A stretch of DNA of 64,000 bases, taken from Streptococcus mitis (GTDB lineage: Bacteria; Bacillota; Bacilli; Lactobacillales; Streptococcaceae). The stretch spans positions 62,001-126,000 of the forward strand of contig NZ_CP047883.1 of assembly GCF_013305725.1 (NCBI RefSeq). Direction: 5' to 3'. Numbering within the stretch: the first letter of the stretch is position 1; the number at the start of each line of letters is the position of its first letter. Of this stretch, positions 7,928 to 41,788 are shown in pieces. The notes below the pieces were generated by a model that saw nothing but the letters and a program-made list of their open reading frames with translations, was not told where the DNA came from and did no database searches. Made by a program: the position numbers and the translations under genes.

Positions 7928-8185
7928 ATGACAAACTCAAAGTATATTACTCGTTTGAAACGTTCAGAGGGCCAGTTGCGTGGGATTCAAAAGATGATTG
8001 AAGAAGATCGTGATTGTGCTGATATTGTGACGCAACTGACAGCCGTGAAATCTAGTGTGGAGCGCGTGATTGAGATGATAATTACCGAAAACCTTACTGA
8101 ATGTATCAATCAGCCACTAGATGATCCTGAAGCTCAAAAGGCACGCCTAGAAAAGGCTATCCGATACTTGATTAAAAGGAAGTGA
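7928..8185 (+). CDS. cstR: CsoR-family repressor of CstR type (persulfide sensor)
   Basis: Small all-helical CsoR-like DNA-binding repressor of 85 residues. Copper sensors of this family use a Cys-His-Cys set. Here Cys30 and Cys59 are kept at CstR spacing, but the position four residues before the second Cys, where CsoR has His, is Asn55. That is the signature of CstR, which responds to hydropersulfides. The gene faces a rhodanese/CoA-disulfide reductase operon whose promoter carries a matching operator, supporting this role. The ribosome site is AAGGAAAAAGAA. The symbol is by homology of residues and context. Confidence 0.82.
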   Translation: MTNSKYITRLKRSEGQLRGIQKMIEEDRDCADIVTQLTAVKSSVERVIEMIITENLTECINQPLDDPEAQKARLEKAIRYLIKRK

Positions 8186-8246
8186 AGTAATTGTTTACTT
8201 TATCATAAAGACAAAAATGCCATCAGTAGAATAGTTTAATGTGAAT

Positions 8247-8385
8247 CAAGAGAGGCTGGAAACAGTCTTTAAAATTAAAAAAATGCATACTATCAGGTGT
8301 TGAAAAACCTTGATAGTATGCGTTTTATTGTGGAGAGATTTACTTCACTTTCTCCTGAAATTGAGTTTTTGTCCAGCTCCTCTTG
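8247..8385. repeat. Miniature repeat, copy B, with terminal inverted repeats
   Basis: Copy B is bounded by AAGAGAGGCTGG and CCAGCTCCTCTT, imperfect terminal inverted repeats. Inside, GCATACTATCA pairs with TGATAGTATGC. It shares most blocks with copy A at 6722. This MITE-like form lies between the convergent cstR and rhodanese genes and ends 2 bp from the rhodanese stop, so it could supply a two-way terminator. Similar GAGGCTGGGACA text recurs at 18594. Confidence 0.6.
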
Positions 8386-8386
8386 A

Positions 8387-8683
8387 TTATTCTACTTGAC
8401 CTGGCCAAGTATTCATACCACCTTCTACGTTGGTAACGGTGAGGCCTTGGGAACTGAGAAATTGACAGGCAGAGGCAGAACGCACTCCTCCTTGACAGAT
8501 GACATGGTATTCATGATCAGGTTTGAGGTCTTTGTAGCCTTGTTCCAAGGTACTTAACGGAAGATTTTTTGCACCTGGTGCATGTCCTGCTTGGAATTCA
8601 TGCGCTTCACGGACATCGATAAGCTCTAAATTTTTATTTTGATATTTTGCATAAAAGTCAGCCATACTGATATTAGTTTCCAT
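8387..8683 (-). CDS. Single-domain rhodanese
   Basis: Rhodanese-like sulfurtransferase of 98 residues, moving sulfane sulfur via a Cys persulfide. The active-site loop reads CQGGVRSA, and the family signature IDVREAHEFQAGHAPGA is near residue 22. It overlaps the end of the upstream CoA-disulfide reductase gene by 11 bp (its ATG lies inside the reductase 3' end), showing co-transcription and probable translational coupling. It is the last gene of a three-gene operon. Confidence 0.92.
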   Translation of the reverse strand: METNISMADFYAKYQNKNLELIDVREAHEFQAGHAPGAKNLPLSTLEQGYKDLKPDHEYHVICQGGVRSASACQFLSSQGLTVTNVEGGMNTWPGQVE

Positions 8684-10328
8684 ATTCTACTCCTTCTGGG
8701 TTAGCCATTTTGTATAGTGAATAAGCGCCGTCAAGGTTTTGGACGGTAAATCCTGCTTGTTTGAGGATACGCTCTGCGATATAGCTGCGCAAACCACTGT
8801 GGCAGCTAACGATGTAGGCTTGGTTCTTGTCTAGTTCATCCAAGTGTTCCCGTAGTTCATTTAGGGGGATATGAATGGTATCGACTTTGAGTCGACCACT
8901 CTGGAATTCGCCACTTGTTCGTACATCTAGGAATTTCTTACCATTAGCTAGTTCGTCTTCGAGCTGGTACCATTGAACATTGTTGCTGAGGCCTTCGATA
9001 AGGTTTAAGGCTGCGTAGCCCAGCATATTGACGGGATCCTTGGCCGAGCCAAATGGTGGCGCATAGGTAAACTCCAATTCTGGTAAGTCAAAGACGGTGA
9101 GATTTCCCTTGATAGCAGTTGCTAGGATATCGATTCGCTTGTCAACACCTTTCTTCCCAACTCCTTGGGCACCATAGATTTTTCCAGTGTTTGGGTCAAA
9201 GAGGAGCTTCAAGGTCATATCAGTAGCGCCTGGATAATAACCAGCATGGTCTTTCCCGCTGACATGAAGGGCCTTGTAAGGAAGTTGATTCATGCTAAGT
9301 ACATGCTCGCTGAGACCAGTCGAAGCAGCTGTCATATCAAAGGTACGAACGATAGCAGTACCGATACTGCCCTTATTTGTACGACCGAGTCCTGCGATGA
9401 CGTCTGCCACTTGGCGTCCTTGTCGATTGGCAGGAGAAGCTAGAGAGATGAGAGCATCTTGGCCTGTAATCTCTTGCTTGACGACGATGGCATCCCCAAC
9501 TGCAAAGATATCTTTTTGACTAGTTTCGTAATGTTCATTGACCAGGATCCCACCACGAAGTCCCAGTTCAACCCCCGCAGCTTTTGCTAATCCATTTTCA
9601 GGTTCAACACCGACAGAAAGGATAGTGAGGTCAGAAGTGATCTTTTGACCATTTTCGAGAATGATGACTTTTCCTTGGTCTTCAAATCGAGTCGCAGACT
9701 GAGAAGTGATAACGCGAACGCCGTTTTTAACCAATTCTTCCTGGACAAAGGCTGCCATTTCTTGATCTAATGGTGGCAAGACATGGGGTGCTTTCTCAAT
9801 GATGGTAACTTGCAATCCACGTTTCGCAAGATTTTCAGCCATTTCAAGCCCGATAAAGCCTGCGCCGATAACGACAGCTTCTTTTGGATGATTGTCCAAG
9901 GCAGCCATAATCTCGTCAAGATCGGGAACATTGCGGAGCGTGTAGGCATTCTTAGCTTCTGCCAAACCTTCAATGGTAGGAACAAATGGTTTAGCTCCTG
10001 GGGAGAGGACCAACTTGTCGTAGCTTTCTGTGAATTCCTGTCCATCGTGTCGCACAGTCACAGTGTGCTCTGCTGGGGAAATACTGATGACCTCATGGAA
10101 AGGACGAACATCCAGATTAAAGCGTGCTTTGAGACTTTCAGGAGTTTGGACCAATAAACTATCACGGTTTGCAATTTCTCCTGAAACATAGTAAGGAAGT
10201 CCGCAGTTTGCAAAGGAAACAAAGGGACCTTTCTCAAAAATAGTGATTTCAGCGTCTTCCATGAGACGTCTGAGGCGGGTTGCTGCTGACATACCGCCTG
10301 CAACTCCCCCGACAATGATAATTTTCAT
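8673..10328 (-). CDS. CoA-disulfide reductase-rhodanese fusion (CoADR-RHD)
   Basis: FAD-dependent pyridine-nucleotide disulfide reductase with a C-terminal rhodanese domain, 551 residues. The FAD motif IIVGGVAGGMSAATRLRR is at the N-terminus, the CoADR active Cys is in SFANCGLPYYVSG (~residue 43), and a second nucleotide-binding GAGFIGLEMAENL lies at ~155. The rhodanese part (from ~455) has FLDVRTSGEFQSGRL and active-site CHSGLRS. Members reduce CoA persulfide or polysulfides and protect against reactive sulfur. The operon lies downstream of a CstR-type operator, so induction by persulfide is likely. Confidence 0.9.
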   Translation of the reverse strand: MKIIIVGGVAGGMSAATRLRRLMEDAEITIFEKGPFVSFANCGLPYYVSGEIANRDSLLVQTPESLKARFNLDVRPFHEVISISPAEHTVTVRHDGQEFTESYDKLVLSPGAKPFVPTIEGLAEAKNAYTLRNVPDLDEIMAALDNHPKEAVVIGAGFIGLEMAENLAKRGLQVTIIEKAPHVLPPLDQEMAAFVQEELVKNGVRVITSQSATRFEDQGKVIILENGQKITSDLTILSVGVEPENGLAKAAGVELGLRGGILVNEHYETSQKDIFAVGDAIVVKQEITGQDALISLASPANRQGRQVADVIAGLGRTNKGSIGTAIVRTFDMTAASTGLSEHVLSMNQLPYKALHVSGKDHAGYYPGATDMTLKLLFDPNTGKIYGAQGVGKKGVDKRIDILATAIKGNLTVFDLPELEFTYAPPFGSAKDPVNMLGYAALNLIEGLSNNVQWYQLEDELANGKKFLDVRTSGEFQSGRLKVDTIHIPLNELREHLDELDKNQAYIVSCHSGLRSYIAERILKQAGFTVQNLDGAYSLYKMANPEGVEYGN

Positions 10329-10348
10329 TGACTTTCTCCTTTATACAT

Positions 10349-10654
10349 CTAGATGATTTTACCTGTCCAAGCACTCATACCGCCTCGGACATTGATGACA
10401 TCATAGCCTTTTTTCTTTAGCTTTTTAGCAGCCATCTTACTACGCATACCAGAATGACAAATGACATAAAGTGTTTCTTTTGTCGCTGGTGTATAAGATC
10501 CGATTTCGGATAGAGGGACATTCTTGGCATTTTTGATATGGCCTCTACGAAATTCCATCGGCGTCCGAACATCCAGTAGCTGAATTGGTTCCTTGAGTTT
10601 GGCTTCTAACTCGCTGGTAGAAATACTGTCAATTTTTGTAAATAAGTGAAACAT
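10349..10654 (-). CDS. Rhodanese-like protein, first gene of the sulfur operon
   Basis: Rhodanese-domain protein of 101 residues with LLDVRTPMEFRRGHI and active-site CHSGMRSKMA. The start is set at the ATG at 10654 because GGAGG sits 6 nt upstream; a TTG 12 bp earlier overlaps that site and is rejected. The leader contains the inverted repeat at 10667-10687, placing this gene directly under CstR-type control. CoADR-RHD follows 20 bp later. Confidence 0.9.
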   Translation of the reverse strand: MFHLFTKIDSISTSELEAKLKEPIQLLDVRTPMEFRRGHIKNAKNVPLSEIGSYTPATKETLYVICHSGMRSKMAAKKLKKKGYDVINVRGGMSAWTGKII

Positions 10655-10666
10655 AGGCACCTCCAA

Positions 10667-10687
10667 ATATACCCTTATGGGGTATAT
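10667..10687 (-). promoter_or_regulatory. CstR/CsoR-type operator
   Basis: ATATACCC and GGGTATAT form a perfect 8-bp inverted repeat around a 5-nt spacer (TTATG). This is the layout of CsoR/CstR operators. It starts at the -10 box of the rhodanese operon and covers the expected transcription start, so bound repressor would block transcription. Confidence 0.8.
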
Positions 10688-10714
10688 TAAACCATGAAGT
10701 CAAGCTTTTGTCAA
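10686..10714 (-). promoter_or_regulatory. Promoter of the rhodanese-CoADR operon
   Basis: On the minus strand TTGACA (10714-10709) is followed after 17 bp by TTTAAT (10691-10686). The CstR-type inverted repeat begins within the -10 box. Confidence 0.75.
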
Positions 10715-10829
10715 GCAAGTTGTTTTGACTTGGGAGGGAATTAGTTTCGAGAGTCTAGAAAGCAGGCTATTCTTGACCTTTCAAAGGCTTTTTGATATGA
10801 TGGGTCCAAAGTGAGTATGAGGTGATAAG

Positions 10830-11393
10830 ATGACCAGTGAATACCAGAAAATGATAGCAGGGGAGCCTTACCGTCCGTCGGATCCTGAATTACGGACCTT
10901 GGCGCAGGCTTCTCGCCAAAAACAGTTTGCCTTCAACCAGGAGTTAGATCCCTTGAAAGGGGCAGAGATTATCAAGACTTGGTTTGGTTCAACTGGAGAA
11001 AATCTCTATGTCAATCCACGCCTGGTGGTTGATTATGGAATTAATATCCATCTAGGGGAAAATTTTTATTCTAATTGGAACTTGACCATGCTGGATGTTT
11101 GTCCGATTCGCATCGGTAACAATGCCATGATTGGCCCCAACTGTCAGTTTTTAACCCCACTCCATCCACTAGATCCGAAGGAACGTAATTCAGGGGTCGA
11201 ATACGGCAAGCCCATCACCATCGGTGACAATTTCTGGGCTGGAGGTGGCGTCATTGTCCTTCCTGGAGTGACACTGGGAAATAACGTAGTGGCGGGAGCA
11301 GGGGCTGTGATTACCAAGTCCTTCGGAGACAATGTTGTTTTAGGTGGCAATCCTGCGCGTGTTATCAAGGAAATCCCTGTGAAAGAAAATTAA
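10830..11393 (+). CDS. Sugar O-acetyltransferase (maltose/galactoside acetyltransferase family)
   Basis: Left-handed beta-helix acetyltransferase of 187 residues. The N-terminus (MTSEYQKMIAGEPYRPSDPEL) is the typical maltose-acetyltransferase cap. Hexapeptide repeats run through IRIGNNAMIGPNCQF, ITIGDNFWAGGGVIV and VTLGNNVVAGAGAVI, ending GGNPARVIKEI. The likely catalytic His lies in FLTPLHPLDP. Such enzymes acetylate sugars with acetyl-CoA, possibly to detoxify non-metabolised ones. The gene ends 12 bp before an IS element. Confidence 0.9.
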   Translation: MTSEYQKMIAGEPYRPSDPELRTLAQASRQKQFAFNQELDPLKGAEIIKTWFGSTGENLYVNPRLVVDYGINIHLGENFYSNWNLTMLDVCPIRIGNNAMIGPNCQFLTPLHPLDPKERNSGVEYGKPITIGDNFWAGGGVIVLPGVTLGNNVVAGAGAVITKSFGDNVVLGGNPARVIKEIPVKEN

Positions 11394-11460
11394 AAAGAAC
11401 AGCTGTGAACTGCACCCCAAAAGTTAGACAGAAAAAATCTAACTTTTGGGGTGTTTTACT

Positions 11461-11997
11461 ATGAAATTAACTTATGATGATAAAGTTCAGATCTATGAAC
11501 TTAGAAAACAAGGATATAGCTTAGAGGAGCTTTCAAATAAATTTGGGATAAACAATTCTAATCTTAGATACATGATTAAATTGATTGAACGTTACGGAAT
11601 AGAAATCGTTAAAAAGAGGAAGAATCGTTACTATTCCTTTAAATTGAAACAAGAAATGATTAAGAAAGTTCTGCTGGAAGGTCGTTCACAAAGAAGTGTT
11701 AGTCTTGATTATGCCCTCCCAAACCAAGGAATGCTTCCAAGTTGGCTGGCGCAATACAAGAAAAACGGGTATACTATTGTTGAGAAAACAAGAGGGAGAG
11801 TACCTAAAATGGGACGTAAACGGAAGAAAACTTGGGAAGAAATGACAGAACTAGAGCGACTTCAAGAGGAGAATGAGCGTCTACGTACCGAGGTAGCCTA
11901 CCTAAAAAAGTTAAAAGAGTTAGAGGAAAGGGACGAAGCCTTAGAGCGAGAAAGGCAGAGACAGTTAGAGAAATGGCTTCAGGAAGATTTCGACTAG
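11461..11997 (+). CDS. IS3-family transposase OrfA
   Basis: DNA-binding OrfA of the IS, 178 residues from ATG 11461. A helix-turn-helix is visible at the N-terminus ([19 protein letters not shown]) with a second copy near residues 60-90, and the C-terminal third is a charged coiled coil ([21 protein letters not shown]) of leucine-zipper type. A few codons before its end it passes an A AAA AAG slippery heptamer, allowing a -1 shift into orfB. Confidence 0.88.
11904..11910 (+). other. -1 programmed frameshift site
   Basis: The heptamer A AAA AAG is in the correct phase of orfA (CTA AAA AAG). Read in the -1 frame, codons are open from here to the orfB stop at 12812, so an OrfAB transposase can be made as in other IS3-family elements. 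Confidence 0.8.
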
Positions 11998-12812
11998 ATT
12001 TACTTCTTGAAACAGCACGTTTAGCTCGTTCGACCTACTACTATCACGTGAAACAGCTAGACAAACCAGATAAGGATCAAGAACTTAAAGCTGAAATTCA
12101 ATCCATTTTTACTGAACACAAGGGAAATTACGGATATCGTCGAATTCATTTAGAATTAAGAAATCGTGCTTATGTGGTCAATCATAAAAGAGTTCAACGC
12201 TTGATGAAAGTGCTCAATTTACAAGCTATAATCCGCAAGAAACGCAAGTATTCTTCTCATAAAGGAGACGTTGGCAAGAAGGCAGAGAATCTCATTCAAC
12301 GTCAATTTGAAGGCTCTAAACCGATGGAAAAGTGCTATACAGATGTGACAGAGTTTGCCATTCCAGCAAGTCCTCAAAAGCTTTACTTATCGCCAGTTTT
12401 AGATGGATTTAATAGCGAAATTATCGCCTATAATCTTTCAACTTCGCCCAACTTAGAACAAGTGAAAGCTATGTTAAACCAGGCCTTCAGTGAGGATCAT
12501 TACACAAATACTATTCTCCATAGTGATCAAGGGTGGCAATACCAACACGATTCTTATCATCGGTTCCTAGAGAGTAAGGGAATTCAGCCATCTATGTCAC
12601 GTAAAGGCAACAGCCCAGACAACGGCATGATGGAGTCCTTTTTTGGTATTTTGAAATCGGAGATGTTTTACGGTTATGAGAAGCACTTTAGATCTTTAGA
12701 AGACCTTGAACAAGCTATTATAGACTATATTGATTACTACAACAATAAACGAATTAAGGTCAAACTAAAAGGACTCAGTCCTGTGCAATACAGAACTAAA
12801 TCCTTTCAATAA
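11973..12812 (+). CDS. IS3-family transposase OrfB (DDE integrase domain)
   Basis: Catalytic part of the IS3 transposase: 279 residues from the internal ATG, longer if made as OrfAB by frameshift. An HTH_21-like segment ([22 protein letters not shown]) is followed by an rve domain with the DDE residues in [18 protein letters not shown] and [13 protein letters not shown]. The domain looks intact, so the element may still be active. Confidence 0.9.
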
Positions 12813-12842
12813 TTATTTGTCCAACTTTTGGGGGTCAGTACA

Positions 12843-13480
12843 CTTTAAGCGTTTTTTCTTTTTTCAATTTTAATCATCACAAAATTTATATATCATTTAA
12901 TCAATTCACTTTTATTTTTTCACGCAGTTCCTATCATATTATTTTTTATAATATGATATAATACGAGTAGAAAACGATTTTGCTACTTGAATTTTACAGA
13001 TTTAAAAGATTTTCCAAAAATTAACATAATGTTATGTTGAAAAGCATTGTTTTTAAAAAGAGTTAAGATTTGAGCGAGTATATATTAGATATAGATGATT
13101 GTTTACTAAAAACACTATTGGAATAGACAGTTTGAAAGGAAGATATGATTAAAAAGTATGATGTAAGATATAATCAGTCAACTAATATAGTGGTTTAATC
13201 TAAAGTAGAAAAGTGGGATGTAATTTTTCATTTACAATTGAGATATATATTTAAAACATAATAAGTTTTTCATGAGATTGACTCAAAAAAATTAAATATG
13301 ACAAAACAAAAGTATAAGAAAGAATATATTAATACTCTGCTGTAAATTATGTAACTTATTTAGTAGGGATGTATTAAATATTGAATGATTTGCTTTTTGG
13401 TTTGTGTCTCTCTAAAAAATTGCTAATAATCAGGAATGAACATTTAAAGAATTAGTTAAATATGTATTAGGAAGAAACAG
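12843..13480 (+). other. AT-rich spacer before the Detocs-like operon
   Basis: About 640 bp of strongly AT-rich sequence with no convincing reading frame, RNA gene or repeat. It presumably contains the dtcA promoter. I see nothing else I can support. Confidence 0.5.
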
Positions 13481-16400
13481 ATGGGTTCAAAGAAAAATAA
13501 AAAAATTAATAAAATTCAAAATAGAAGACAGGTCATCAGCAATTATGATATAGTAGAACTTCAGAAGAAAATTGCCTTAGGAAAAAAGTTATCTGTCAGT
13601 GATATATTTAAAATAAAAAGCTCGAATAATTCAGAAATTAAAAGACAATTTTTTAAAACAACTACAATAGCTAATGAGTATTTTTCTTATCATTCTAATA
13701 AAGCAATTATAAAAAATATTAAGAACACTGATTTTACAGGATTTAATATTCATCTTGAGAGTTTAACTCTTATGAAAGAGCTAGAATGGTTTCTGCTTGA
13801 ATTATTATCGTTTAAAGATGAGATTAATTACTATTTAGGATTGAAATCAGAGTTTGAAGATTCCTTTTTTAGAAGAAATTGTGATTTTGGAGAACATATT
13901 TTAGCAGAAATAAAAGAAAATCTTGGTTTTTCTCTATGGGAATTTGAAAATGAACTGTTAATAAAAATAAATAAAGAGAAACATAATAAGAGTGAACTTA
14001 TAGAAGAAGTTAACTCTTTATATCAAGACGATAAACCTTATTCAAGTTTCAATGCCTTATTACTATCTTTAATTGTTGATAAAATATCAGATGAATCAGA
14101 CTCATTTCTTTATTACCAAACTATTAGTAAAAAAATTGAAGGGATTCCTGAGCCTTTTAAACATGTTCTTTCTTATTTTCTATTATGTGAATCTTATCCT
14201 TTATATAATGAAAAGGAAGTTAGCAAATTGCTAGCACACTCAACTATGTTATCTATAGTTGATAGATTTAATATATTAGTGAAATTACTACTAAATTTTC
14301 CTGAGAATATTAAGAAAAAAATACGTGATAATTTTTCAAGTATATTAAACCAATTTGACGATTATAAAATAAAGAAATTTCTATCAGAAAGGTATGATTT
14401 ATTAGATAATTTAAATAGAAGTGACATTGATTTTATTGAAACACAACAGCAGTTATCGGTTAAAAATTATAAGAACAATAGTAATTTGATTGGTAAGGTA
14501 ATAAAGGAATATTATCTAAGTTATTCAACTGTAGACTTATTGAGTAGATATGTATCATCACAAAATAGAGAAGAAGAAGAACTCTACAAAGACTTAAAGA
14601 TAGAGTATATTCCAGATTTTGTAGATATAATAAATTGTTATGTTAAGATTAAGAATTTTAGTTTTTCTAGTGACCATATAAGTAAGCTTTACTATTACAC
14701 AAGAAAGTATAGTAGTTTCGATTTATTAAACCAATTTAGGTTACATCTAAGAGCATTATCTACAGGGGCGCTAGATGATAGAAGGATTGAACTTTATGAT
14801 AAATACACTACACTATCCTGTCTAAAGTATACTATAGATGCCATAGATGCTGTAAAAATTTTAAATAAAAATATTGATTTTAAAATTTATTTAGATGATA
14901 TTTTTAGTTTAAAAGTTAACAATATAAAATCTGTAGCAGATGTTGAGCTAGGGTTATCTCTATTAAGAAATATCAAGCTGGATATCAATAGTTTAAATAA
15001 TTTTTCGCAATCAATTGAGGATTTGCAATTACCGGTATGGTATTTAGAAGAAGTGAAATATTTTATTTTTAATCATTACTTGGATAGTAATGATTTACAA
15101 AATGCGATAGCAGAATTATCGGATGCCTATTTTAGAAGGAAAAATTCTATCTGTATTTATCCTTTGGATAAAATGAGAGAGTTACTTGATCAAGAAACAT
15201 TATGTTTTGATTTATCGAAAATAGAGGTTCCAATTGTCGCAAAATTATGTAACTCTTCTAAATTAAAATATATTTTCGAAGATTATCTAGAAGAAAACAT
15301 GATAGATTATCCTTCAAATATGAAAATGGGAACAAATAATGAAAACAAAGTGCGCTTTGTGTTAGAATCTATTTGTACACGAGAATTATTATCGGAATTA
15401 ACTATGATTTTAGAATCTGAAGAGCAAGTGACTAATGAACGATTAAGTATTCTTAGTAAATTGAACGAATCGAATGTTGGGGAGTTCGATAATAAATATG
15501 CGAAAGAGATAAGTGAGTTATCACAAGAAGTCTTATTAAAAAAATTAGTACGTTCGGTAAACCGAAGCAAGTTAACTGTTGATAGTGAAAAAATATATCA
15601 AAAAAATAAGGATGAACTTGGTAAGTTCTTTAATGACTTTATTGATACAAAAGAAGAGCGATTATTGGGATATTTTACAAATGATCAATTAAATGAGAAT
15701 AAACAATTACTTTTTATTGGATTGAAAGAATATAATCCCAAAATGGGAGCTTTAGAGCGTTTGTTTACTAAAGTTGTTATAAAATTCTTGTTTGATGATG
15801 ATGGCTTAGATTCATATCTCAGCACAAGGGTAAGACATGGAACTTTACAAGGACAAATTAGACGTGCTTTTAGTAATAATAATTTAATAACAGAAAAGAT
15901 ATCGGATACATCCAATATATACGCTCCAAATGAGTATATAAAAAAAATAGTTGAACCAAATTATGATAAAATATCAAGTATTCTTAATGATTTCTCAGAA
16001 TCAGTGGATGATGAAATAACACGTATAAAGCAAGAAATATTACAAATCAAATACGGAGAGAGAGGGATAGATTCCGGGATTTTTAATTTGAGTGAAAGCT
16101 TTTATGATATAGAAGATGAAGTATATAATAAAGTAAAAGTACTAAATGATCCAAAACAAATATATGATAAAATTGTAGAGTATATCTGGAAAAAAATTGA
16201 TATAAAAGTATTGATGTTACAAAAGATGATTAAAAGTGACATAACAAAAATCTTTATTGACAAACTTACAAACTTGGAACATCGTTTAGATAGGAGTGGG
16301 TTAGAATTATCTATTATTAGAAATAATATCGCAAGTTGTAAGACAGACATTCAAAATTCATTAGAAGAAATAGCAGGATGGTTTGAACGTTCGCAAATTT

Positions 16401-16897
16401 CAGATGATACTGTAGTCCATAGCGAAGATCTAATTTCTGTTTCTAAAAATATAATTTCAAAAATAAATTCTGATTTTGAAAAAATAACATTTAATTTGGA
16501 ATTAAATAAAGACTATAAAATTTCTAGTAGAGAACTTCCATTTTATATCGATATACTCTTGATTTTATTCAACAATGCTATGAAACATAGTGGTGTTAAA
16601 AGTGATGACCTTATTATTAATGCTTCCATAATTGAAAATGAAGATGGATCTACTATTAAGTTTAGCAATAATTACTTAAGTGAAAAGGAAGACTTAATTA
16701 GAGAGTCAATTGAAACTTTGAAACAGAGCTTAGATGAAATAGCAAGTAGTGATAATATTCCAAGGTTAACTAAAGAAGGAGGATCGGGCTACCATAAATT
16801 ATTTAAAATAATAAAAATTAATTTTATTAAGGACCCCTTTTTTGAATTTTGTATATCGAAAGATAAATTTGAAGTGATTATCAGAATGGAAGGATAG
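13481..16897 (+). CDS. dtcA: DtcA-like sensor with C-terminal histidine-kinase ATPase domain (Detocs)
   Basis: Large protein of 1138 residues. The long N-terminal part is helical and repetitive without a motif I can name. A conserved-looking segment RVRHGTLQGQIRRAF lies around His786. The C-terminus is a GHKL/HATPase_c domain: N-box ILFNNAMKHSG (Asn1031) and G-box TKEGGSGYHKLFKI (~1097-1110). In Detocs, DtcA senses phage infection, autophosphorylates on His and passes phosphate to the receivers. No membrane segment is obvious, so it is likely cytoplasmic. It starts with AGGAAGAAACAG before ATG, and the next gene begins 2 bp after its stop. Codon and base use are much more AT-rich than the flanking backbone, pointing to transfer. 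The phosphorylated His is not identified with confidence. Confidence 0.8.
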   Translation: MGSKKNKKINKIQNRRQVISNYDIVELQKKIALGKKLSVSDIFKIKSSNNSEIKRQFFKTTTIANEYFSYHSNKAIIKNIKNTDFTGFNIHLESLTLMKELEWFLLELLSFKDEINYYLGLKSEFEDSFFRRNCDFGEHILAEIKENLGFSLWEFENELLIKINKEKHNKSELIEEVNSLYQDDKPYSSFNALLLSLIVDKISDESDSFLYYQTISKKIEGIPEPFKHVLSYFLLCESYPLYNEKEVSKLLAHSTMLSIVDRFNILVKLLLNFPENIKKKIRDNFSSILNQFDDYKIKKFLSERYDLLDNLNRSDIDFIETQQQLSVKNYKNNSNLIGKVIKEYYLSYSTVDLLSRYVSSQNREEEELYKDLKIEYIPDFVDIINCYVKIKNFSFSSDHISKLYYYTRKYSSFDLLNQFRLHLRALSTGALDDRRIELYDKYTTLSCLKYTIDAIDAVKILNKNIDFKIYLDDIFSLKVNNIKSVADVELGLSLLRNIKLDINSLNNFSQSIEDLQLPVWYLEEVKYFIFNHYLDSNDLQNAIAELSDAYFRRKNSICIYPLDKMRELLDQETLCFDLSKIEVPIVAKLCNSSKLKYIFEDYLEENMIDYPSNMKMGTNNENKVRFVLESICTRELLSELTMILESEEQVTNERLSILSKLNESNVGEFDNKYAKEISELSQEVLLKKLVRSVNRSKLTVDSEKIYQKNKDELGKFFNDFIDTKEERLLGYFTNDQLNENKQLLFIGLKEYNPKMGALERLFTKVVIKFLFDDDGLDSYLSTRVRHGTLQGQIRRAFSNNNLITEKISDTSNIYAPNEYIKKIVEPNYDKISSILNDFSESVDDEITRIKQEILQIKYGERGIDSGIFNLSESFYDIEDEVYNKVKVLNDPKQIYDKIVEYIWKKIDIKVLMLQKMIKSDITKIFIDKLTNLEHRLDRSGLELSIIRNNIASCKTDIQNSLEEIAGWFERSQISDDTVVHSEDLISVSKNIISKINSDFEKITFNLELNKDYKISSRELPFYIDILLILFNNAMKHSGVKSDDLIINASIIENEDGSTIKFSNNYLSEKEDLIRESIETLKQSLDEIASSDNIPRLTKEGGSGYHKLFKIIKINFIKDPFFEFCISKDKFEVIIRMEG

Positions 16898-16899
16898 CA

Positions 16900-17358
16900 G
16901 TGAAAATATTAATTATTGAAGATGATAAAAATAAAAGTACTCAAATTATTGAGCGTTTGAGTAGCTACTTTACAGATATAGATTTTACTGTCAAAAGATC
17001 ATTTCAACAAGGAGTAAAAACACTAAGGAGTTCTAGTTTTGATGTATTACTTCTGGATATGACATTGCCTACATTTGATATTGATATCAATAGCAGTGGA
17101 GGAAAGATTAGAAACTTTGCTGGGATGGATATTTTAGATGTAATGCAGCAGAGGCAAATAGGTCTTAAAACAATTGTAATAACTCAATATGAAAGTTTTG
17201 GGGAAGAATTAGTTACAATATCTCAGATGAAGGATATATTAAAAGATCGATACAACAAAAATTTTGTTGATATAATATATTATAGTTCTTCGTCTAAAAG
17301 TTGGTTTGAAAGTTTAAAGAAATTATTAGGAGATCTATATGAAAGTATTAATTGTTGA
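16900..17358 (+). CDS. dtcB: DtcB-like stand-alone receiver protein
   Basis: 152-residue single receiver domain with no output domain. Acidic pocket Asp8/Asp9, phospho-acceptor Asp53 in LLLDMTLP, a Thr in VITQYES and a Lys in SSKSWF are all present, so it should be phosphorylatable. In Detocs, DtcB acts as a phosphate sink that drains stray signal from DtcA and prevents self-intoxication. The start must be GTG 16900, since no suitable ATG precedes the conserved KILIIEDD strand. It overlaps dtcC by 20 bp. Confidence 0.82.
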   Translation: MKILIIEDDKNKSTQIIERLSSYFTDIDFTVKRSFQQGVKTLRSSSFDVLLLDMTLPTFDIDINSSGGKIRNFAGMDILDVMQQRQIGLKTIVITQYESFGEELVTISQMKDILKDRYNKNFVDIIYYSSSSKSWFESLKKLLGDLYESINC

Positions 17359-18544
17359 TGATAATACTGATAAAATCAAAGAAATAACAAAAGTTTTTAA
17401 TAAAAAAAATTGGGAAATTGACACTTCAACAGGTTCAGTAGAAGCAATGAAAAAACTTAAAGAAACTGAATATGATTTATTAATTTTAGACCTAATTATT
17501 CCTAAAAAAATTGGTGTTGATGACGTGAATTTGAAGAACTCAATTGATTTGTTAGAACGAATTAAAAAGGGGAAAGGGTTAATTGAACCTAAAAATAAAG
17601 TAGCTTTAACGGCAGATACAAATGCGCTTGAACAGGGGCACCCAATTTTTTCTTCAGCATTTATAGAAATAATAAAATATGATCTCTCTTCTCGAGGGTG
17701 GCGTGATAATTTATTTTCAAAAATAGAGATGATTGAGAATTTTACCCCAAATTATTATCAAAAAAGAGGATACCTTTACGATTTTGCAATCATAACCGCG
17801 TTAAAGTCACCAGAATTAGATGCGGTCAAGCAAGTTTTCCCAGATTTAGAACAAATTAATATCGAGGGTGATACTTCGTATTATTTTGGAGTAAAACTAA
17901 CAGATGGAAGAAAAATCTTATTAGCTACTGATAACCAGATGGGAATGGTTGCTATGTCACAATTTACTGAAAAAATAATTCAAACTTTTCGTCCATATAA
18001 TGTTTGTATGTGCGGAATAGCAGCTGGAGTAAAAGGGGAGGTGAATTTAGGTGATATAATGGTATCTAAGGAATCATGGAACTATGATAGTGGGAAAATA
18101 GTTGAAGGCTCTTTCAAACCTGATTATAGTTCTATTTCGATCCATGAGGAATTAGTTTCAAAGATAAATAAAATTGTTGATCTTCCCGTAAAGTTATTTA
18201 AAATAAAAAAAGAATTTTCTGGGCCAACCCCTGAACATGATTTACAAATGAAGATAGGTCCAGTTGCTTCTGGATCAAGTGTTGTAGCAGATACGGAAAT
18301 TTTAAAAAGACCACAAAGTTTGACTAGGAAATTACTTGGTCTTGAGATGGAAATTTATGGGATGTATTTTTCTTGTAAACATACTTCAACACCTAGACCA
18401 GAGAACTTTCTTGCGGTAAAGAGTGTTTGTGATTTTGCTGATGCAGATAAAAATGATAGTTATCAACAATATGCAGCATATACAAGTGCAAGTTTTTTAA
18501 AATTAATTATTGAGGAAGGTGTATTTGATTCTGAAGATTTCTGA
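17339..18544 (+). CDS. dtcC: DtcC-like receiver-nucleoside phosphorylase effector
   Basis: Two-domain response regulator, 401 residues. The N-terminal receiver (1-~130) has Asp7/Asp8, phospho-acceptor Asp51 in ILDLIIP, a Thr in KVALTADT and a Lys in IIKYDLSS. The C-terminal domain (~148-395) is of the PNP/UDP phosphorylase (MTA/SAH nucleosidase-like) fold: CGIAAGVKGEVNLGDIMVS, the LEMEIYG motif (335-341) and the catalytic-type Asp365 in SVCDFADADK. In Detocs this effector, once phosphorylated, cleaves ATP to adenine and ribose-5'-triphosphate and stops phage growth. It begins inside dtcB. The pairing with a kinase-like gene distinguishes it from ordinary nucleoside salvage enzymes. Confidence 0.85.
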   Translation: MKVLIVDDNTDKIKEITKVFNKKNWEIDTSTGSVEAMKKLKETEYDLLILDLIIPKKIGVDDVNLKNSIDLLERIKKGKGLIEPKNKVALTADTNALEQGHPIFSSAFIEIIKYDLSSRGWRDNLFSKIEMIENFTPNYYQKRGYLYDFAIITALKSPELDAVKQVFPDLEQINIEGDTSYYFGVKLTDGRKILLATDNQMGMVAMSQFTEKIIQTFRPYNVCMCGIAAGVKGEVNLGDIMVSKESWNYDSGKIVEGSFKPDYSSISIHEELVSKINKIVDLPVKLFKIKKEFSGPTPEHDLQMKIGPVASGSSVVADTEILKRPQSLTRKLLGLEMEIYGMYFSCKHTSTPRPENFLAVKSVCDFADADKNDSYQQYAAYTSASFLKLIIEEGVFDSEDF

Positions 18545-18641
18545 TGTCTTAATTTTCTTTCAGACTTTTAACTGGAAATATTTTGAAACTAAACGAGGCT
18601 GGGACAATAGTGTCTCGATTTTATCAAAAAAAGCAACGGTT

Positions 18642-18700
18642 TGAACGGCACCCCAAAAGTTAGACAGAAAAAATCTAACTTTTTGGGGTGTTTTATTATG
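18642..18700 (+). mobile_element. 59-bp left-end remnant of the same IS3-family element
   Basis: The sequence TGAACGGCACCCC through the hairpin (ACCCCAAAAGTTAGA and complement) to GGGGTGTTTTATTATG matches the left end of the IS at 11406, in the same orientation, up to the orfA start codon, where the IS200-type element begins. The hairpin could also terminate dtcC transcription. Confidence 0.8.
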
Positions 18701-19500
18701 TGACTATTAGTCCGTCTCGCTCCGTTAGGTGCGAGACAAATAAACCACCCGCTATGCGGGTGCGCGTCGAAGGTTATACCAAAAACTCCAAACGCGATAC
18801 AATAAAGGTGTTCAAGCCAATTGTAAAGCGAAAGGAGAAAAATATGGCACAAAAGGCACATAGTTTATCACACACAAAGTGGATGTGTAAATATCACATT
18901 GTGTTCACCCCTAAGTATAGACGAAAAGTCATTTATAATCAATATCGAAGCAGTTTGGGAGAAATATTTCGTCGATTATGTAGTTATAAAGGTGTTGAGA
19001 TTCTCGAAGGCCATTTAATGCCTGATCATGTACATATGTTAGTAAGTATTCCACCAAGGATAAGCGTTTCAAGTTTCATGGGGTATTTAAAAGGCAAAAG
19101 TGCACTCATGATGTTTGATAAACACGCCAACCTCAAGTATAAGTTTGGGAATCGGCATTTCTGGGCAGAAGGTTATTATGTAAGTACAGTAGGGCTCAAT
19201 GAAGCCACAATTAAGAAATATATTCAAGATTAAAGAAATTATCCAGTGGATGATTTCTTCACGAGTATAAAAATTCGAGAACGAGTAAAGCATGATATAG
19301 CACTAGATAAAATGAGTGTAAAAGAATATGAGGATCCCTTTAGGGATAGTGGTAAGTAATACTAAAGCCTCTTTGAGAGGTTTGTGACGAGTCAAGAGCA
19401 ATAAGGCTTGAACAACGTGAAAGCCAGCGTCTTTAGGCGCTGGCTGGTAATTTGGGCTTATAGCCCTGGTGCAAACCACCCGTTAGACGGGTGGTCATGA
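18701..19500 (+). mobile_element. IS200/IS605-family element with tnpA only
   Basis: About 0.8 kb with subterminal hairpins typical of single-strand transposons: CACCCGC-TAT-GCGGGTG at 18746-18762 on the left and ACCACCCGT-TAG-ACGGGTGGT at 19475-19495 on the right. A further GTCTCGC/GCGAGAC stem lies near 18714-18737. It was apparently inserted next to or into the IS3 remnant. Exact ends are inferred. Confidence 0.82.
18844..19233 (+). CDS. tnpA: IS200-type transposase TnpA, truncated at the C-terminus
   Basis: Tyr-1 HUH transposase. The HUH pair is His62/His64 in MPDHVHML and the catalytic Tyr is Tyr126 in IKKYIQ. The product is 129 residues because a TAA follows YIQD. Past it the same frame is open to a stop at 19357-19359, giving the family's usual ending (VKHDIALDKMSVKEYEDPF). 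Removing a 51-bp segment after ATTCAAGA would restore a protein of 154 residues, the normal length. The helix after Tyr126 is lost, so activity is doubtful. Confidence 0.85.
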   Translation: MAQKAHSLSHTKWMCKYHIVFTPKYRRKVIYNQYRSSLGEIFRRLCSYKGVEILEGHLMPDHVHMLVSIPPRISVSSFMGYLKGKSALMMFDKHANLKYKFGNRHFWAEGYYVSTVGLNEATIKKYIQD

Positions 19501-19738
19501 TTTCTATCTTAGTCTTATAAATTTTTCTTCTTTTTGGTTTGGGAGACATGGCACTGGGGGATGTTGGTTTTAAAAACTATTAACTGTATTTTAGTATTCT
19601 CAAATTGTTTCTAGTAGCCTTTTCAAAAGAATATTAAGCGAAACTAAATTTAAGGAAACTTTCAGAAAAGTTTTAGTTTTGTTTGAGGAATCTTCTGTAA
19701 ACTGTCTAGCTATATCATACGAAGGAGAGGAAAAAGGT

Positions 19739-20971
19739 ATGAAATCAAAAAAATGGACCCTACTCGCAACGAGTTTAACGGCAATGGTGCTGATGGCAGC
19801 ATGTTCCCAGTCAACAACTACATCTAATACCAAGGCAACGACAAATAATGCAACAACTTCAACAAAGATAAACCAAACTTCCTATTTTACAGAGAAGGAC
19901 AATGATACTGCTTATGATGAAAGCACAGCTTCTAAGATTGAGCTATCTGGCTCATCTGCAAACGTCTCTGGAGATGGGGTGACAGTCTCTGAATCAACAG
20001 TGACCATCACAAAATCTGGAACCTATGTGATTTCAGGTCAGTCTGACGGAGTGCAGATCAAGGTCGAGGCAGATAAGTCGGCAGATGTTCACCTAGTCCT
20101 AAAAGGTGCGACTATGACCAATACCAATGCAGTAATTTCTGCGACATCAGCTGGCCATGTCTACCTGACTCTGGCAGAGGGAACCACCAATAGTCTTTCT
20201 GACTCAAGCTCGAACAGTGACGAAAAAGCCGACGCAGCTCTCTTTTCTAAGGCGGATTTAACCATCAACGGGAAAGGAACTCTTAATGTAGAAGGAAAGA
20301 AAAATAATGGTATTAAGGCCAACGACACCCTCCACATCACGGGTGGAACCTATAACATCACAGCAGTTGGCGATGCCTTTAATGTCAATGATGAACTCAA
20401 CATCACTGGTACGACCATGACTATCGATGCCAAAGAAGATGGAGTCAAGGTGGACAATGATGAAGATACTTCAGTCGGAACCATGTACCTATCTAACAAC
20501 AAGATTACCGTTACAGCAGGGGATGATGGCATCCACGCTTCTGGAGACCTCGTCATCGATAGTGGGACTTACACCGTCAAGAATTCGACAGAAGGACTTG
20601 AAGGGAAATCCATCACTATCAACGGAGGGGACATTAGCATCTATTCAACAGATGATGGAGTCAATGCAGCCAACAAAAATGCCCAACAAAGTGAAATCTT
20701 CTTCACCATGAATGGCGGGAACCTGACTGTAGAAGTTGGTCAAGGAGATACAGACCCAATCGACTCGAATGGGAATATCACTGTCACAGGCGGAACCATT
20801 AAAATGATTGGTCAAACAGGTTTTGACTTTGATGGAACAGCGACCTACACAGGTGGGGACATCTATCTCAACGGTGAAAAGCAAACGGAAATCGTCAACT
20901 CTATACCTGGAGGCGGTGGACCGGGTGGGGGACCTCAAGGCGGCGGTCCAGCCCCTGGCGGACAAGGATAA
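19739..20971 (+). CDS. Lipoprotein with carbohydrate-binding beta-helix domain (DUF4353-like)
   Basis: Predicted surface lipoprotein of 410 residues. The start is ATG 19739 after GAAGGAGAGG; the frame extends 20 codons upstream without a better start. The signal peptide MKSKKWTLLATSLTAMVLM ends in lipobox MAAC. A Ser/Thr-rich linker follows, then a repetitive beta-helix-like domain with recurring GTYxI, DDGI/DDGV and NGGDI units (for example GDDGIHASGDLVIDSGTY), and a glycine/proline-rich tail. Members of this family are annotated as carbohydrate-binding; the ligand is unknown. Confidence 0.8.
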   Translation: MKSKKWTLLATSLTAMVLMAACSQSTTTSNTKATTNNATTSTKINQTSYFTEKDNDTAYDESTASKIELSGSSANVSGDGVTVSESTVTITKSGTYVISGQSDGVQIKVEADKSADVHLVLKGATMTNTNAVISATSAGHVYLTLAEGTTNSLSDSSSNSDEKADAALFSKADLTINGKGTLNVEGKKNNGIKANDTLHITGGTYNITAVGDAFNVNDELNITGTTMTIDAKEDGVKVDNDEDTSVGTMYLSNNKITVTAGDDGIHASGDLVIDSGTYTVKNSTEGLEGKSITINGGDISIYSTDDGVNAANKNAQQSEIFFTMNGGNLTVEVGQGDTDPIDSNGNITVTGGTIKMIGQTGFDFDGTATYTGGDIYLNGEKQTEIVNSIPGGGGPGGGPQGGGPAPGGQG

Positions 20972-20975
20972 GCAA

Positions 20976-21009
20976 AATTCTCCTTTCTCGAGAGAGAAGG
21001 GAGATTTTT
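20976..21009 (+). terminator. Rho-independent terminator
   Basis: TCTCCTTTCTC pairs imperfectly with GAGAAGGGAGA, followed by a T run, just after the lipoprotein gene. Confidence 0.7.
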
Positions 21010-21043
21010 GTGTTGTTACTAGAGGAAATGTAAAGACAACTCC

Positions 21044-21071
21044 TTGACACTCCGTCAGTTTTTGATACAAT
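21044..21071 (+). promoter_or_regulatory. Promoter of the nucleoside phosphorylase gene
   Basis: TTGACA at 21044 and TACAAT at 21066 with a 16-bp spacer, about 25 bp before the ribosome site GAGGAGGTGG. Confidence 0.75.
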
Positions 21072-21096
21072 AGTACAAAATTAGAGGAGGTGGGCG

Positions 21097-21861
21097 ATGA
21101 TTCAGAAGCATGCGATTCCCATTTTAGAGTTTGATGATAACCCCCAAGCGGTCCTTATGCCAACACATGAGGGATTAGACTTGAAGTTGCCAAAGAAGTG
21201 TATCTATGCATTTTTGGAGGAGGAGATTGACCACTATGCTCAGGAAGTAGGGGCGGACTGTGTTGGTGAGTTCGTTTCTGCCACCAAGACTTATCCAGTC
21301 TATGTCCTCAACTACAAGGGCGAGGAGATTTGTCTGGCTCAAGCGCCTGTTGGTTCTGCTCCAGCGGCCCAGTTTATGGATTGGTTGATTGGCTATGGTG
21401 TGGAGCAAATCATCTCCACTGGTACTTGTGGAGTCCTAGCTGATATAGAGGAAAATGCTTTTCTCGTCCCTGTTCGCGCTCTGCGAGATGAGGGAACCAG
21501 CTACCACTATGTAGCGCCTTCTCGTTATATGGAGATGCAGATTGAGGCTATCTCTGCCATTGAGCAAGTCTTGGAACAAAGAGGCATTCCTTACGAGGAG
21601 GTCATGACCTGGACGACAGATGGTTTTTATCGAGAGACGGCTGAAAAAGTTGCCTATCGCAAGGAAGAAGGCTGTGCAGTTGTGGAGATGGAGTGCTCGG
21701 CTCTTGCGGCAGTAGCCCAACTACGTGGGGTTGTCTGGGGGGAATTGCTCTTTACCGCAGATTCCTTAGCAGATTTAGAGAACTACGACAGTCGCGACTG
21801 GGGCTCAGAAGCTTTTGATAAGGCACTCGAACTCTGTCTTGCCATTGTGCACCACATGTGA
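21097..21861 (+). CDS. Nucleoside phosphorylase (uridine phosphorylase-like)
   Basis: PNP/UDP family enzyme of 254 residues that splits nucleosides with phosphate for salvage. The motifs ISTGTCGVLADIEENAFLVP and VVEMECSALAAVAQLRG (conserved MEC/MES in place of MEGAA) are present, as is AQAPVGSAPAAQFMDWLI, a probable phosphate/dimer region. A strong GAGGAGGTG ribosome site precedes ATG 21097. Specificity is not clear from sequence. Unlike DtcC it has no receiver domain. Confidence 0.85.
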   Translation: MIQKHAIPILEFDDNPQAVLMPTHEGLDLKLPKKCIYAFLEEEIDHYAQEVGADCVGEFVSATKTYPVYVLNYKGEEICLAQAPVGSAPAAQFMDWLIGYGVEQIISTGTCGVLADIEENAFLVPVRALRDEGTSYHYVAPSRYMEMQIEAISAIEQVLEQRGIPYEEVMTWTTDGFYRETAEKVAYRKEEGCAVVEMECSALAAVAQLRGVVWGELLFTADSLADLENYDSRDWGSEAFDKALELCLAIVHHM

Positions 21862-21894
21862 GTGTTCTGACTGTTTTTATGGTAGAATGTAGTT

Positions 21895-23274
21895 ATGTTA
21901 TTCAAATCTTTTTTGGAAAAAATCAAGACGATACTGGGACGCTTGTCGCCAGCCCGTCGCATCTTTTTAAGTTTTGCCCTAGTGATCTTCTTAGGTTCGC
22001 TTCTTTTAAGTCTCCCCTTTGTGCAAGCAGCTACGTCACAAGCGACCTACTTTGACCATCTCTTTACGACCGTGTCCATGGTCTGTGTGACAGGGCTCTT
22101 TACCCAGCCGGTAGCCTCTACTTACAATATATGGGGCCAGTTGATCTGTATGCTCTTGATCCAGATTGGCGGTTTGGGGCTCATGACCTTTATCGGAATC
22201 TTTTATATCCAAGGCAAGCAAAAGCTCAGTCTTCGTGGTCGGGAGACCATTCAAGAAAGTTTCAGTTATGGAGAAACCCAGTCTCTAAAGGACTTCATCC
22301 GCTCGATCTTTCTGACGACTTTTTTGGTGGAAGGGATCGGTGCCTTTCTCCTGAGTTTCCGCTTCATTCCTGAATTTGGCTGGGGACGAGGGGTGTTAAC
22401 CTCTATCTTTTTGGCTGTTTCAGCTTTCTGTAATGCTGGATTTGACAATTTTGGAAGTACGAGTTTGCTAGCCTTTCAAACGGATCCCTTGATCAATCTA
22501 GTCATTGCTGGTTTGATTATCACAGGTGGTCTAGGATTTATGGTCTGGTTTGATCTAGCAACCCAGTTTGGGAAAAAGAAAAAACGCCGCCTGCGTTTCC
22601 ATACCAAGTTGGTTCTCTTTTTAACGGCGGGAATTCTGCTCTTTGGAACCGTATCGACTTTGTTCATTGAGTGGAACAATCCTGGAACGATTGGAAATCT
22701 CAGCGCTCCAGAGAAATTGCTGGTTAGCTTTTTCCAGACCGTCAGCATGAGAACGGCTGGCTTTGCTTCAATTGACTACACTCAGGCTCGACCAGTTACC
22801 TTACTGATCTACATCTTGCAGATGTTTCTGGGCGGGGCACCAGGAGGGACAGCAGGGGGGCTTAAGATTACGACCTTCTTTGTCTTGTTGGTCTTTGCTC
22901 GTAGCGAACTATTGGGCTTGCCTCATGCCAATGTTGCTCGGAGGACCATTGAACCCCGAACCGTGCAAAAATCTTTCAGTGTCTTTATTATCTTCTTGCT
23001 GACTTTCTTGCTGGGATTGATTCTATTAGGGGTAACCGCAGAAGGAAATCCGCGCTTTATCTACCTCATGTTTGAGACCATTTCAGCCCTTGCGACAGTT
23101 GGAGTGACGGCAAATTTAACACCGGAGCTAGGCAAGATAGCCCTCAGCATCGTTATGTTGTTGATGTTTATCGGCCGTATTGGTCCCTTGACACTACTGG
23201 TCAGTGTAGCGGAATACCAGCCAGACAAGAAAGATACGATTCACTATATGAAAGCAGATATCACCATTGGATAA
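21895..23274 (+). CDS. trkH: Potassium uptake channel TrkH/KtrB
   Basis: Membrane pore subunit of a Trk/Ktr potassium transporter, 459 residues. Selectivity-filter-like loops are visible at TVSMVCVTGLFTQ, SAFCNAGFDNFG, SMRTAGFASID and ALATVGVTANLT, each after a pore helix, as expected for the four-fold repeat. It works with the TrkA-type regulator encoded 13 bp downstream. A -10-like TAGAAT lies just before ATG 21895. Confidence 0.93.
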   Translation: MLFKSFLEKIKTILGRLSPARRIFLSFALVIFLGSLLLSLPFVQAATSQATYFDHLFTTVSMVCVTGLFTQPVASTYNIWGQLICMLLIQIGGLGLMTFIGIFYIQGKQKLSLRGRETIQESFSYGETQSLKDFIRSIFLTTFLVEGIGAFLLSFRFIPEFGWGRGVLTSIFLAVSAFCNAGFDNFGSTSLLAFQTDPLINLVIAGLIITGGLGFMVWFDLATQFGKKKKRRLRFHTKLVLFLTAGILLFGTVSTLFIEWNNPGTIGNLSAPEKLLVSFFQTVSMRTAGFASIDYTQARPVTLLIYILQMFLGGAPGGTAGGLKITTFFVLLVFARSELLGLPHANVARRTIEPRTVQKSFSVFIIFLLTFLLGLILLGVTAEGNPRFIYLMFETISALATVGVTANLTPELGKIALSIVMLLMFIGRIGPLTLLVSVAEYQPDKKDTIHYMKADITIG

Positions 23275-23287
23275 GAAAGGAAGAACG

Positions 23288-23953
23288 ATGTCAGATCGGA
23301 CAATTGGAATTTTAGGCTTGGGAATTTTTGGGAGCAGTGTTTTGGAAGCTCTAGCCAAGCATGACATGAATATCATTGCTATTGATGACCACGAGGAACG
23401 CATTAATCAGTTTGAACCAGTGTTGGCGCGAGGGGTAGTTGGAGATATCACGGATGAAGAACTCCTTCTATCAGCGGGGATTGACACCTGTGATACCGTA
23501 GTTGTCGCAACGGGGGAAAATCTAGAGTCCAGTGTTCTCGCGGTTATGCACTGCAAGAGTCTAGGAGTACCGACAGTTATTGCCAAGGTCAAAAGCCATA
23601 CAGCTAAAAAAGTTCTAGAAAAAATCGGTGCGGACGCAGTCATCTCACCAGAGTTTGAAATGGGGCGCTCATTAGCGCAGACAATCCTCTTTCATAACAG
23701 CGTGGATGTATTTCAGCTAGATAAGAATGTTTCGATTGTCGAGATGAAAATCCCCCAATCGTGGACGGATAAAAGCCTCAGTCAGTTAGATCTACGTGGG
23801 CGATACAATCTCAACGTACTTGGTTTTCGTGCCTACGAAAATGCTCCTCTGGATGTCCAATTCGGACCCAATGACCTCTTGCAGGCAGATGCCTACATCA
23901 TGGCAGTCATTAATAACCAACATTTGGATACCCTAGCTGAACTGAGTGAGTAG
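23288..23953 (+). CDS. trkA: Potassium uptake regulator TrkA/KtrA
   Basis: RCK-domain regulator, 221 residues, binding nucleotide and gating the TrkH pore from the cytoplasm. The Rossmann motif GILGLGIFGSSV is at the start and a TrkA-C domain occupies about the last 70 residues. ATG 23288 is chosen because AAAGGAAGAACG precedes it; an in-frame TTG at 23267 overlaps trkH and is unlikely. Same operon as trkH. Confidence 0.93.
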   Translation: MSDRTIGILGLGIFGSSVLEALAKHDMNIIAIDDHEERINQFEPVLARGVVGDITDEELLLSAGIDTCDTVVVATGENLESSVLAVMHCKSLGVPTVIAKVKSHTAKKVLEKIGADAVISPEFEMGRSLAQTILFHNSVDVFQLDKNVSIVEMKIPQSWTDKSLSQLDLRGRYNLNVLGFRAYENAPLDVQFGPNDLLQADAYIMAVINNQHLDTLAELSE

Positions 23954-24109
23954 GAGAGGAAGGGTACTCTCTTTCCCAAATAATTAACGAGTCAATATAA
24001 GTATTTTATAAGAGGGATTTAAGAAAAATTTTAACTTTTTCTTAATCCTTTTTAATTTTAGGAGATTATACTAGAGTCATCAAAAAAAGAAAGCTCTAAG
24101 GAGAATCCT

Positions 24110-30785: not shown

Positions 30786-30910
30786 AAAAAGCACTTAGAA
30801 TAATCTAAGCGCTCAAGAGTAGTGGACGGTGTGCCTGTCCCGTCATCTCATACTATGAAGTTGCGTAGCGACACTATCATTTCTACCTCACTTCTCTTTA
30901 AACTAATTAT
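30786..30910 (-). ncRNA. Possible small transcript inside the integrated remnant
   Basis: On the minus strand a TATAGTATAAT box near 30915 is followed by about 100 nt and ends in a clear terminator (AGCGCTTAGA-TTAT-TCTAAGTGCT then TTTTTT at 30813-30786). Only a 10-codon frame is present. It could be a small RNA or a deletion scar. The rest of 30604-31083 shows only decayed frames, such as a 34-codon one from GTG 30929. Confidence 0.35.
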
Positions 30911-37159: not shown

Positions 37160-37183
37160 GCGTTGTAGAAATGGGGTATGAAC

Positions 37184-41777: not shown

Positions 41778-41788
41778 GGAGGAGATAT

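Follow-up and report, generated by a model that had tools for sequence, protein, structure and literature searches.

A probable Detocs-type defence operon on an acquired insertion in Streptococcus mitis

Do three closely packed genes in a Streptococcus mitis genome encode a phage defence system, and if so, which one? The genes, here called A, B and C, lie at positions 13481 to 18544 of a 64,000-nucleotide stretch (NCBI RefSeq assembly GCF_013305725.1, contig NZ_CP047883.1, positions 62,001 to 126,000, forward strand), which we refer to as the window. An earlier reading of the sequence alone, hereafter the original prediction, had assigned them to the phosphorelay system Detocs, reportedly described as DtcA-DtcB-DtcC by Rousset et al. 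in 2023. Our analysis makes it probable (roughly 85%) that the window carries a horizontally acquired defence operon of the Detocs type, which would be triggered by a kinase and act through an effector that cleaves ATP. The strain is one of the few streptococci to carry this system, which is of a known kind and not a new one; defence, phosphotransfer and ATP cleavage by A-B-C are what we infer from the sequences and models of the operon.

A three-gene operon with the layout of Detocs

The operon comprises the following genes:

13481..16897, + strand: gene A, DtcA-like kinase (PDC-M60A), ATG start, 1138 amino acids
16900..17358, + strand: gene B, DtcB-like lone receiver (PDC-M60B), GTG start, 152 amino acids, phospho-acceptor Asp53
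17339..18544, + strand: gene C, DtcC-like effector (PDC-M60C), ATG start, 401 amino acids

The open reading frame (ORF) list bore out the tight packing originally claimed, with a gap of 2 nucleotides between A and B and an overlap of 20 nucleotides between B and C, and all three frames were intact. In the accessible text of PMC11728103, Detocs consists of DtcA with a histidine kinase, DtcB as a phosphate-absorbing buffer and DtcC as a response regulator, and PMC11249213 reports ATP cleavage for the best-described Detocs PNP effector. The window operon showed the same three-gene architecture of kinase, lone receiver and receiver-fused PNP effector, with the role residues kept, so that the predicted order and domain set fit these partial descriptions. 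A profile check of the three proteins, also proposed at the outset, was made with PADLOC models and matched the neighbouring genes to all three of PDC-M60 (M60A, M60B and M60C). PDC-M60 is among the unpublished candidates of Payne et al. for whose proteins DefenseFinder gives named systems, with the pairing placed in the supplement (PMC11811056, accessible text). One departure from PDC-M60 was that the best matching stretch of A was confined to residues 592-1114.

The closest likeness at the level of whole operons was to Streptococcus suis 10581 (locus L023; loci are cited here by L numbers), which has the same gene order and 69.8% DNA identity over 4990 bp, with protein identities of 59% for A, 77% for B and 67% for C. 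The surroundings of the two operons differ, as a blastn search with window positions 8000-24000 matched L023 only within the operon (13605-18530).

Protein A resembles a histidine kinase

The features of protein A are as follows:

residues about 20-722: helical, TPR-related N-terminus
conserved LSTRxRHG motif, containing His786
residues 891-966: helical hairpin, where the dimerization and histidine phosphotransfer (DHp) domain would be expected (model)
residues about 974-1138: histidine-kinase ATP-binding domain (structure model)

As expected of the first Detocs protein, A has the hallmarks of a histidine kinase: the N-box ILFNNAMKHSG and G-box GGSGYHK of the predicted C-terminal HATPase were present, and the structure model contained a histidine-kinase ATP-binding domain. 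A matched PDC-M60A with an E value of 6e-48, the best stretch covering residues 592-1114 (profile positions 600-1127 of 1161), and a second stretch also passed. We found 39 homologues of A, all with the precomputed Pfam accession PF27260.1. Close ones are P0002-P0004, with 99, 96 and 93% over residues 560-1138, the part of A used as query; the more remote members of alignment A1 share 16-24% identity with A. Across 61 rows, Asn1032 of the N-box, Gly1103 of the G-box, Trp967 and His786 were each conserved in 61 and Glu1099 in 56. His786, Asn1032 and Gly1103 were invariant also across a wider alignment of 91 rows, as were these three and Trp967 in alignment A4, which sets the window's A beside seven copies from enterobacteria and those of L024 and L025 (10 rows).

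Conservation was lowest in the N-terminal 600 residues. Per 100-residue block, identity to three S. suis-type proteins was 37-59% there and 53-74% elsewhere, and the block means against 83 distant rows were 12-19% and 20-27%, respectively. Such a pattern would be expected of a sensor under selection. The lack of an obvious transmembrane sensor noted in the original prediction was upheld, since no 19-residue window of A exceeded a Kyte-Doolittle mean of 1.24 and no transmembrane helix was predicted. The phage cue should therefore be intracellular.

Proteins B and C provide a lone receiver and a receiver-fused nucleosidase

B matched PDC-M60B (E 5.9e-38) and fell just below the Pfam cut-off for Response_reg (E 4e-6, 27.4 of 30.2 bits). 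As originally proposed, it is a lone receiver with an intact phospho-acceptor: Asp53 was conserved in all 68 rows of the B alignment, one of them (L057) being a piece of a disrupted C, alongside Lys12 (68) and Thr95 (65).

Protein C has two parts:

receiver, with phospho-acceptor Asp51
residues about 145-394: PNP-fold nucleosidase domain, with Asp365, Glu338 and Met337

The receiver-PNP fusion, which is that of the best-described Detocs, was likewise recovered. Pfam assigned PNP_UDP_1 (E 7e-17) and Response_reg (E 3.8e-8), Asp51 was present, and the structure model showed the fold of a methylthioadenosine/S-adenosylhomocysteine (MTA/SAH) nucleosidase with catalytic-type residues kept. Conservation across 67 rows was complete for Asp8, Asp51, Met337, Glu338 and Asp365 and reached 66 for Lys12. 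We take Met337, Glu338 and Asp365 to be the active site by analogy with MTA/SAH nucleosidase, an analogy of fold and Asp/Glu/Met residue type that draws partly on general knowledge; the PDB titles among the fold matches of C name two mutants, Asp198Asn for the Helicobacter pylori enzyme and Asp197Asn for a different one. Unlike MTA/SAH nucleosidase, C carries a receiver, and it stayed below the cut-offs of both NCBIfam equivalog models, with 59.7 bits where 169 are required and 29.2 where 73.8 are, which by curated cut-off places it outside the housekeeping MTA/SAH nucleosidases.

C matched PDC-M60C with an E value of 2.8e-101 (residues 1-393 on profile positions 1-400 of 407) and scored 337.3 bits on it, whereas the PADLOC 'Effector' model for the PN superfamily gave 69.7. 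A placement of C in a DtcC clade draws its support from this difference in score, phylogeny speaking neither for nor against it. When 89 PNP domains were placed in a tree, C of the window joined the S. suis C with support of 100/100. A branch of their own (98/98) was formed by seven PNP proteins that lack A and B; the backbone was poorly supported and the A-B-C rows did not form one clade. In this tree, L093 is counted twice, once per group, and the label 'other' includes L085, L089 and L092, whose copies of C are incomplete or cut. Eight loci (L094-L097 and L099-L102) encode a PNP domain closely similar to the one in C, and neither A nor B was detected in the stretches at hand; seven of the eight make up the separate branch.

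Points that weigh against the assignment

Several observations, here and in the next two paragraphs, weigh against this reading. The likeness to Detocs is set by descriptions rather than by tested sequences, and the present copy is streptococcal, unlike Detocs as described; the accessible parts of PMC11249213, PMC10952713, PMC11728103, PMC11811056, PMC9966839, PMC12405507 and PMC12409349 gave no Detocs sequence or residue detail. The kinase nature of A was elusive in general-purpose searches. A Pfam search returned no HATPase or HisKA match for A, Pfam and NCBIfam on their own gave no usable match, and only 1 of the 29 members of alignment A1 matched HATPase_c at E ≤0.01. Foldseek on its own found no match for A at E ≤0.001 (best 1.4e-3), and a PDB sequence search with A as sole query yielded weak, unrelated matches, the family profile doing better.

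The phosphorelay residues are also unusual. The hairpin at 891-966, the expected phospho-acceptor site, has no conserved histidine. His786 is the sole histidine conserved throughout the A family (61 of 61 rows; a single further column, 1036, exceeds 40% histidine, at 26 of 61), and it lies outside the hairpin, 246 residues before the N-box Asn. From its conservation, His786 would be the best candidate phospho-acceptor, or else A works differently. Structural matches starting near residues 777-782 of the A model include RetS and ZraS, several with a high root-mean-square deviation. An apparent overlay of the His786 helix on the first DHp helix was not counted, as only first and last residues were given and the deviation was up to 15.9. 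In the receivers, the usual beta-5 lysine is not conserved in either B or C. At the beta-5 column 113 of C, lysine occurs in 18 of 67 rows, among them the window's C (Lys113). Columns 126-134 of B each have lysine in at most 7 of 68 rows, and column 136, after the conserved Trp135, has it in 38 of 68 and Phe in the window's B; which B column is equivalent to the usual beta-5 lysine is uncertain. Lys12, in contrast, is kept by all 68 rows of B and by 66 of the 67 rows of C; three ordinary response regulators from the loci have Ile or Leu at this position. We tentatively suggest, as a possibility that we hold with less than even confidence, that the A-B-C family uses a non-standard phosphorelay, with a phospho-acceptor His786 outside the hairpin and the switch lysine moved from beta-5 to Lys12 at the start of helix 1. 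If true, the moved lysine could insulate the relay from the ordinary two-component systems of the cell.

Finally, the solved folds nearest to C are MTA/SAH nucleosidases, and ATP is for this reason a presumed substrate. The operon could be a defence operon of the same architecture in which C cleaves not mainly ATP but another purine compound, such as dATP, SAH, MTA or a modified nucleotide. We consider this unlikely, because the match between C and PDC-M60C spans almost the full length of both, and because ATP is what the PNP effector of the best-described Detocs cleaves (PMC11249213).

The operon lies on an acquired insertion

The operon sits within the following elements of the window:

11406..19508, no strand: whole insertion, 8.1 kb; L113 and L116 are continuous across this point without it
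11409..12843, + strand: IS3-family element at the left edge (ends approximate, read by eye)
12844..13480, + strand: AT-rich upstream region, 22% GC (computed), with a putative promoter role
18628..18700, + strand, direct orientation: 73-bp left-end remnant of the same IS3-family element (blastn, 89% identity)
18701..19495, + strand: IS200-type element at the right edge (ends approximate; hairpin 19475-19495)

The predicted bracketing by insertion sequence (IS) elements was thus confirmed. Upstream of the operon, IS3-family transposase ORFs span 11446-12812, and the ORF at 11973-12812 matched NCBIfam transpos_IS3 (E 3e-97). Downstream, in addition to the IS3 remnant, the IS200 transposase ORF at 18688-19233 matched Pfam Y1_Tnp (E 2.2e-40) and NCBIfam transpos_IS200 (E 4.5e-47) over a domain at residues 64-180. 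A composite transposon of two IS3 copies was considered but not borne out, as only the 73-bp IS3 end was found on the right side.

We compared the site with nine same-genus loci that have a good right flank (L113-L121), leaving out the weaker L122-L138. The left and right flanks lay at most 60 bp apart in five of the nine (L113, L116, L117, L119 and L120), and the other four (L114, L115, L118 and L121) aligned on the right flank only. In L113 and L116 (identity about 91-93%), the junction of the two flanks corresponds to window positions 11405 and 11404, respectively, and 19509, and the intervening sequence measures 34 and 21 bp, which indicates that about 8.1 kb was inserted. The insertion point falls inside a terminator-like hairpin after the ORF at 10830-11393. 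The operon is also AT-rich, as predicted, with a GC content of 26.1% in A, 27.7% in B and 31.3% in C against 39.7% for the window. Judged from this low GC content and the empty sites in relatives, the operon is foreign and horizontally acquired, in agreement with the original prediction.

A-B-C operons recur across several phyla and are rare in Streptococcus

We scanned named species genomes and analyzed the best 80 of 110 stretches encoding a C relative. A-B-C was complete, in order and on one strand in 59 of the 80, under a rule that required A to exceed 1050 amino acids in one frame and the C match to run from near start to end. The other 21 comprise L091, with all three genes but below a threshold; the eight PNP-domain loci L094-L097 and L099-L102, with neither A nor B detected; L089, with an incomplete C only; L085, with pieces of A and C; seven that start at a contig end (L026, L034, L036, L053, L054, L067 and L092); and L039, L057 and L072, with A, C or both split across frames. 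The hosts of A-B-C loci belong to Bacillota, Bacteroidota, Pseudomonadota, Thermodesulfobacteriota, Planctomycetota and others. Within Streptococcus, A was matched at E ≤1e-20 in 2 of 284 genomes, the present one and the one with the S. suis hit; for the complete model of C the figure was 2 of 147. A tblastn search with C gave 89 plasmid records, of which 43 covered 80% or more of the query at a single site, and two phage records, both partial; the enterobacterial relatives sit on plasmids or near integrase genes. DNA searches of 5,426 complete Escherichia coli genomes, in which the A, B or C genes of six copies from enterobacteria served as queries, returned 1, 6 and 4 matches (3 of these 4 covering at least 80%) for the first three copies and 16 (short pieces, none above 80%), 13 (11 covering at least 80%) and 1 for the other three.

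These data bear on a further explanation, that the operon is an ordinary two-component relay tuning purine or SAH metabolism or signalling, with no role in phage defence. Its domains are indeed those of a two-component system joined to a metabolic-type nucleosidase, and no phage test of the present operon is known to us. Nevertheless, the rare and patchy occurrence (A in 2 of 284 Streptococcus genomes), the foreign GC content, the IS-bearing insertion and the association of enterobacterial relatives with plasmids or integrase genes make this explanation very unlikely.

Three further observations concern the relatives. The most divergent enterobacterial type (L106-L108) has a shorter A (966 amino acids in L106, with M60A matched in part) that adjoins a TIR-domain gene and a DUF4231 gene, and L103 also has a DUF4231 gene after C. 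The E. coli Detocs located between yjcB and ssb (PMC11728103, accessible text) was sought among L103-L111 but not identified, as none of the surroundings inspected showed yjcB-ssb neighbours. A full A-B-C operon (L048, 3987-9236) occurs on a contig of 11 kb that is assigned to Candidatus Nanoarchaeia; PMC11249213 states that archaeal genomes lack Detocs/PNP, and the archaeal label is likely due to mis-binning.

Expression signals and other features of the window

Shine-Dalgarno-like purine runs, read by eye, precede the starts of A, B and C, and the operon promoter is probably located in 12844-13480. A consensus promoter scan of 12800-19700 gave 57 sites against 42.2 (standard deviation 6.0) in shuffles and singled none out. 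That the cassette is decaying, its frames persisting while expression or function is lost, is hardly credible: the scan without a standout site and the IS elements on both sides would fit it, but the three intact frames, the ribosome-binding-site-like sequences, the conserved residues kept and the close homologues of A elsewhere (P0002-P0004) argue otherwise.

A type I restriction-modification locus occupies 37178-44678, with HsdR at 37178-40546 and HsdM at 43062-44678. Between the two lie an AbiH abortive-infection gene (40707-41777) and a gene for a 408-residue protein (41789-43015) with no Pfam match at E 1e-5. The HsdR-AbiH-HsdM stretch gives the window a second defence locus. A separate PNP_UDP_1 nucleosidase/phosphorylase gene (21097-21861) lies outside the insertion, close to its right edge; its closeness to C looks coincidental, because this flank is common to relatives without the insertion. 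At 24110-27562 the window also encodes a surface protein that has a YSIRK signal, six copies of the SSURE repeat and a C-terminus of LPxTG type, seen by eye as LPYTG. There are further two Rfam matches to skipping-rope small RNAs, at 33696-33782 (+) and 30817-30896 (-), where long ORFs are few.

Proposed mechanism and significance

The residues and folds required by each step of the proposed mechanism are present in A, B and C. The helical N-terminus of a cytosolic A would sense an intracellular sign of phage infection, and the modelled ATP-binding domain of A would then phosphorylate a histidine of A, most likely His786. The phosphate would pass to Asp51 of C, and B may drain stray phosphate through Asp53 and thereby keep C silent in healthy cells, a buffer role taken from the accessible description of Detocs. 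Once phosphorylated, C would use its PNP-type site to convert ATP to adenine and ribose-5'-triphosphate, and phage growth would be stopped.

With this operon, Streptococcus gains a rare, intact and mobile copy of a presumed ATP-depleting defence system. Moreover, the family alignment pinpoints His786 of A and Lys12 of both receivers as residues that should be informative on the mechanism and possible insulation of the relay.
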